Assembly: GCA_030627285.1 (NCBI GenBank)
Contig: DAOUSJ010000006.1
Span: 1-43,332 of the forward strand
Length of the DNA: 43,332 bases
Direction of reading: 5' to 3'
Source of the DNA: Methylococcaceae bacterium
GTDB lineage: Bacteria; Pseudomonadota; Gammaproteobacteria; Methylococcales; Methylomonadaceae
Positions 42,427 through 43,332 of the stretch are shown here, one piece after another. Every line of letters begins with the position of its first letter. The first letter of the stretch is position 1. The notes under the pieces were generated by a model. The model was not told the origin of the DNA. It was given only the letters and a program-made list of their open reading frames with translations, and did no database searches. The translations under genes and the position numbers were made by a program.

Positions 42427-43233
42427 CTATATTTGGCAAGCTTTTGGTATCTTAATTTTTTTCTTAGCCGAATGTGTGACCGGATGCTTTTTAAACCACC
42501 ATGACAAAGTTGCATTACAACCATCACCTGCTGATATTGGTGCTTGTTTTATGCATTCAGGACTTGATTTAGGACACCGCAAACGCACATGAAAATGTTC
42601 ATCATGATAATACCAAGGGCGAATTTTTTGTAGCCATTGTCGATTTCCAGTAACTGTTGTGCATAAATCCTGCTTAATATGAGGATTAACAAAAATTCTA
42701 TCTACTTCTGGCATATTCGCTGCTAGTTCCAATAACTTTCGATGTTTATTTGTCCACATCGCATTTAAGCCTTTTCCATTTGGATTTAACATAGATGGTT
42801 GTTTGATATTACTGCGTTGTTTGTTTGCATTTGCATAACTTTTAGGATTCAAATTAAACCAAATATCAGCATCTAAACCAGATTGATGACTGCGATGCCC
42901 AAAAGGTAACGCGCCACCTCTATTTTGCCCTAAATCACCAATTTGTAAAATTCCAAGTTGCTGTTGTTGTGCTTGTTTTGCTAGTTCTTGTAATGTTTGA
43001 ATTAGCACTGGATGACCATAATAACGTTGCCGCTCTAAGTGAACCAATAAATAACCATTTCCTTGCAAAGGCAAGGCTTTTGCACCAAAAATACAACCAT
43101 TATTAGTTTTACCAATAACATAGGCTTCGGAGTTATTCGGCGGGCTAAATTGTGTCTCATTTACTGCGCTTACAGCATAATTTGCCTGAAAAAACATCAG
43201 TATCAAAAATAATGCTTTCAAAATAAAATTCAC
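42427..43233 (-). CDS. mepA: Penicillin-insensitive murein endopeptidase MepA
   Basis: MepA is a periplasmic zinc LAS-family (M74) endopeptidase that cuts D-Ala-meso-DAP crosslinks in peptidoglycan. The 268 residues begin with a signal peptide (about 1-23). The metal motifs are GHRSHQSGLDADIW at 112-125 (His113, Asp121) and HDEHFHVRLRCP at 210-221. Four or more Cys in the mature protein fit the disulfides seen in E. coli MepA. The start is GTG at 43233, with agagg upstream. The CRISPR-like repeat begins only 70 bases from the start, on the upstream side. Confidence 0.93.
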   Translation of the reverse strand: MNFILKALFLILMFFQANYAVSAVNETQFSPPNNSEAYVIGKTNNGCIFGAKALPLQGNGYLLVHLERQRYYGHPVLIQTLQELAKQAQQQQLGILQIGDLGQNRGGALPFGHRSHQSGLDADIWFNLNPKSYANANKQRSNIKQPSMLNPNGKGLNAMWTNKHRKLLELAANMPEVDRIFVNPHIKQDLCTTVTGNRQWLQKIRPWYYHDEHFHVRLRCPKSSPECIKQAPISAGDGCNATLSWWFKKHPVTHSAKKKIKIPKACQI

Positions 43234-43303
43234 TTTGCAACCTCTTTAAATTTCTGAATTAAACAATTTCTTATACACCTAATTTACTAATTATGAAACT
43301 AAA

Positions 43304-43332
43304 TGTCTCAGCCCCACAAGCGTGGGGAACAC
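43304..43332 (-). CRISPR. Type I-E-like CRISPR repeat at the window edge (single unit)
   Basis: Read on the minus strand, the unit starts GTGTTCCCCACGCTTGTGGGG and ends with CTGAGACA. The first half and the stem (CCCCAC / GTGGGG around AAGC) match the typical I-E repeat GTGTTCCCC...GGGG; the last eight bases differ from the common ATGAACCG. By I-E convention, transcription would run right to left, making this the leader-distal, often degenerate, last repeat. Only one unit is in view, so the array itself is inferred. Confidence 0.75.

Follow-up and report, generated by a model that had tools for sequence, protein, structure and literature searches.

A question raised by contig C94 of a metagenome-derived genome (G000; 1.93 Mb in 117 contigs, 94% complete) is whether the 29 bases on which it stops form the border of a type I-E CRISPR array that continues beyond the readable sequence. 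The window, i.e., the whole stretch of DNA analysed here, is the entire contig of 43,332 bp, and its sequence stops since the contig stops. As discussed below, the terminal element is most likely the last repeat, on the leader-distal side, of an I-E array that continues rightward past the contig end, the assembly having broken there. The features concerned are listed in Table 1.

Table 1. Features at the repeat-bearing end of the window.
Feature	Coordinates	Strand	Remarks
mepA, penicillin-insensitive murein endopeptidase (Peptidase_M74)	42427..43233	-	Neighbour gene, outside the CRISPR system
A+T-rich intergenic DNA from mepA to the repeat, array-distal flank	43234..43303	.	From the sequence
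Type I-E-like CRISPR repeat, probably leader-distal	43304..43332	-	Stem CCCCAC/GTGGGG, loop GCTT, degenerate tail CTGAGACA

The repeat on which the contig stops

Read on the minus strand, the terminal element is GTGTTCCCCACGCTTGTGGGGCTGAGACA. The initial annotation had noticed there an I-E-like start and a GTGGGG stem, had considered a chance match improbable and had placed the element exactly at the window end, and these statements are borne out. The bases of the start and stem can be read directly. At the base composition of the window (35.4% G+C), about 5e-6 occurrences of the exact motif GTGTTCCCC-N6-GTGGGG would be expected in it, and a search for the genus-type 29-mer that tolerated up to 3 mismatches gave one match in the window compared with none in any of 100 dinucleotide shuffles. 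The element makes up the last bases of C94, which terminates on the first base of the minus-strand repeat (base 43332). In the whole genome the exact motif has this single copy, and the reversed motif has none.

When the element is compared with the genus-type I-E repeat, 26 of the 29 positions match and 3 differ. Relative to the genus form with loop GCTT, the departures are only at positions 26, 27 and 29, so that all of the substitutions are confined to the final four bases, and the 25 bases ahead of the tail changes are intact, with the whole stem included. It had also been claimed that the tail differs from the usual one; the tail does depart from it, at three positions, but the usual tail in the genus is CTGAACCG rather than the ATGAACCG that had been assumed. 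The element is predicted to fold into the expected hairpin (-12.7 kcal/mol). It has the make-up by which an I-E repeat is recognized, i.e., 28-29 nt of the form GTGTTCCCC...GTGGGG...GAACCG with a hairpin, and it shows the 3' degeneration that is common, though not strictly defining, for a leader-distal repeat. An Rfam search gave no match at the repeat-bearing end of the window, and viral contigs searched with the repeat core gave no match.

A type I-E array has at least two repeats with a spacing of about 61 bp, spacers of 32-33 nt and a leader adjoining the first repeat. At the end of C94 one repeat is visible, with neither a second repeat nor a spacer, and this was counted against its being an array end. 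It is noted that because the assembly stops on the repeat, the array is unreadable past position 43332. A repeat search with up to 3 mismatches found no continuation of the C94 array on the other contigs of the assembly, the sole further repeats being two on contig C115. CRISPR arrays make short-read assemblies collapse, break or turn chimeric (PMC6617893), and we infer that such a break is the reason why C94 stops.

Arrays of relatives and the flank of the repeat

The same-genus genomes G004 and G005 contain I-E repeats of the form GTGTTCCCCAC-NNNN-GTGGGGCTGAACCG, with the tail CTGAACCG and a 61-bp spacing. The contig of the G004 array with leader also has Cas1 and Cas7e family matches, and these matches, together with the repeat type, suggest that the array is of type I-E. 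Among the relatives' arrays with a readable distal border (G005:C77, G028, G031 and G070), the final leader-distal repeat is altered in its tail in four of four cases, versus 1 of the 43 other repeats. Since the tail changes of the C94 repeat sit where the relatives' last repeats change, the repeat is read as leader-distal. The leader-distal end is a known site of accumulating repeat mutations (PMC4869251). Based on the tail pattern and the repeat strand, the leader and the remaining array would lie to the right of position 43332.

Two side observations concern other loci of these genomes. At G004:C105 1-393 (L046), I-E repeats in plus orientation meet an I-E repeat in minus orientation beside a leader, and the inverted junction suggests misassembly. 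In G003:C86 (L075), which has Cas7e and Cas1 matches, the repeats take a different form, GTCTTCCCCACGTCCGTGGGGGTGTTTCC (observed in L041), and therefore there is a second I-E-like repeat type in the genus.

On the other side of the repeat, blastn matches to the mepA loci of relatives end within the gene, short of the intergenic DNA. Among named relatives, the one nearest to the mepA protein is in a Methylococcaceae bin, with 72% identity, and the source organism is accordingly a probable gammaproteobacterium with kinship to methane oxidisers. A Pfam scan of 40 window proteins, that of mepA included, gave no match to a Cas family. The relatives have no array at the equivalent position beside mepA, which was likewise counted against the presence of an array end here. 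A conserved order of mepA and array was considered and rejected, with mepA having different neighbours in G002, G003 and G004 and the repeats of G005 being on the other side of the gene. Note also that G005:C20 4450-4754 (L070), from a bin of the same genus, shows one I-F repeat with I-E repeats immediately after it, adjoining a mepA gene; an I-F array and cas1 occupy the opposite end of this contig of 4.75 kb, which is possibly chimeric.

The cas genes and the second I-E site

The initial annotation had also led to the expectation of cas3, cse1, cse2, cas7, cas5, cas6e, cas1 and cas2 genes. The cas search took in Cse1, Cas7e, Cas6e and Cas1; in the 94%-complete assembly it found neither the first three nor a Cas1 of type I-E, and the result was counted against the reading as an array end. 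The sole Cas1 of the assembly is encoded where contig C95 ends, and its gene is cut by the contig end. The locus (G000:C95 8354-14671, L044) is assigned to type I-F because cas1 is accompanied there by a Cas2-Cas3 fusion, Csy1 and Csy2; the I-F repeat pattern that was tried has no match in the assembly. The I-E cas genes may have been lost, or they may lie within unassembled or unbinned DNA. Similarly, the C94 array and any I-E cas operon may have been missed by the assembly or the binning, or the arrays may be orphans.

A second I-E site is present in contig C115 (18777-19541, L004), consisting of two like-oriented I-E repeats with loop GCTT and, at the right, an I-E leader. Between this leader and that of the G004 array 101 of 127 aligned bases are identical, with 83% identity in the repeat-proximal part. 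The two repeats are separated by 707 bp that contain a small helix-turn-helix (HTH) gene and a resolvase gene truncated at the N-terminal end. A relative of this resolvase gene in G001 extends farther on the side that is truncated in C115. A plasmid search with the insert gave matches only in the resolvase part (about 74-82% identity), and viral contigs searched with the two spacer-like ends gave no match. The usual I-E PAM is AAG. At the resolvase-side junction, with the sequence read by eye, AAG is found at a distance of 33 nt from the repeat, which corresponds to one spacer; a PAM at the other junction, whose corresponding bases fall outside the contig, is a guess from the codons.

The C115 site is possibly an assembly chimera formed through spacer-protospacer matches, in which the assembly would have slid out of the spacers into the target element that they match, but no second copy of the 707-bp element was found in the G000 genome. 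The site may also have arisen by a real insertion or rearrangement. That the I-E arrays are orphans without I-E cas genes beside an I-F system, and that moreover the C115 spacers have truly been replaced by the 707 bp of mobile-element DNA, with both joins being protospacer-like, we regard as highly improbable. The idea that the C115 flanks represent one ancestral locus is unsupported, since 282 kb separate the two flanking genes in G001 and the genes do not share a contig in either G004 or G005.

Preferred reading, alternatives and comparison with known arrays

We favour the reading of the terminal element as an array end because C94 ends on the repeat, 26 of its 29 positions match the genus form, arrays are present in the same genus, the relatives' last repeats have altered tails, a homologous leader is present in C115, the hairpin is predicted, and assemblies are known to break at arrays. 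The earlier suggestion of a degenerate I-E border repeat is thus well supported by the repeat form within the genus, the altered terminal tails of the relatives and the I-E leader homologue elsewhere in the genome. An ordinary I-E terminal repeat with an ordinary assembly break is the most likely case. The assembler would have halted at the first repeat reached from the flank side, and the continuation to the right of position 43332, beyond the contig end, would consist of 32-33-nt spacers and then GTGTTCCCCACGCTTGTGGGGCTGAACCG. Transcription of a complete array would start on the right and proceed toward mepA, with the transcript being cleaved at the repeat hairpins by Cas6e to give guide RNAs for Cascade and Cas3.

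By contrast, the element could be a solitary relic, i.e., a single worn repeat left after the rest of the array had gone by deletion or decay. While this would be in line with the I-E cas genes (Cse1, Cas7e and Cas6e) not being found in the assembly, with the three substitutions in the tail and with the presence of just two more I-E repeats genome-wide, the unchanged first 25 bases, whole stem included, and a break that coincides with the edge of the repeat, as it should with several different sequences behind it, make a relic unlikely. The repeat could also have come from another array or organism and have been attached to the flank by the assembler, as the odd junctions at the I-E repeats in C115 and in G004:C105 might suggest; however, joining via a shared repeat should keep the standard tail, whereas the altered tail CTGAGACA is unique in the genome, and such a mis-join is therefore very unlikely. 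That this G+C-rich intergenic hairpin resembles a repeat by chance, or is a terminator or some other unrelated hairpin, is hardly conceivable in view of the motif expectation and the shuffles given above and of the true arrays of the same repeat form in relatives.

With the terminal element read as an array end, a CRISPR repeat that stands alone where a contig stops is recognisable and the likely direction of its array can be read from its worn side, and the absence of arrays or cas genes from a draft metagenome bin may reflect the assembly. By itself, the C94 repeat is of little significance, its biology being ordinary.

Finally, we compare the C94 repeat with the known arrays. The site in C115 has the identical stem and loop GCTT, and its distal repeat is likewise degenerate, at other positions; unlike C94, this site includes a leader and a second repeat, with mobile-element DNA in place of ordinary spacers between its repeats. 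In comparison with G005:C77 and G004:C105, where N4 is ACTC or ATAC, the C94 repeat has the loop GCTT and three tail changes instead of one, and it is the only repeat visible in its contig, whereas the 29-nt GTGTTCCCCAC-N4-GTGGGGCTGAACCG form is the same in all of them and the last repeat of G005:C77 is 3'-altered as in C94.
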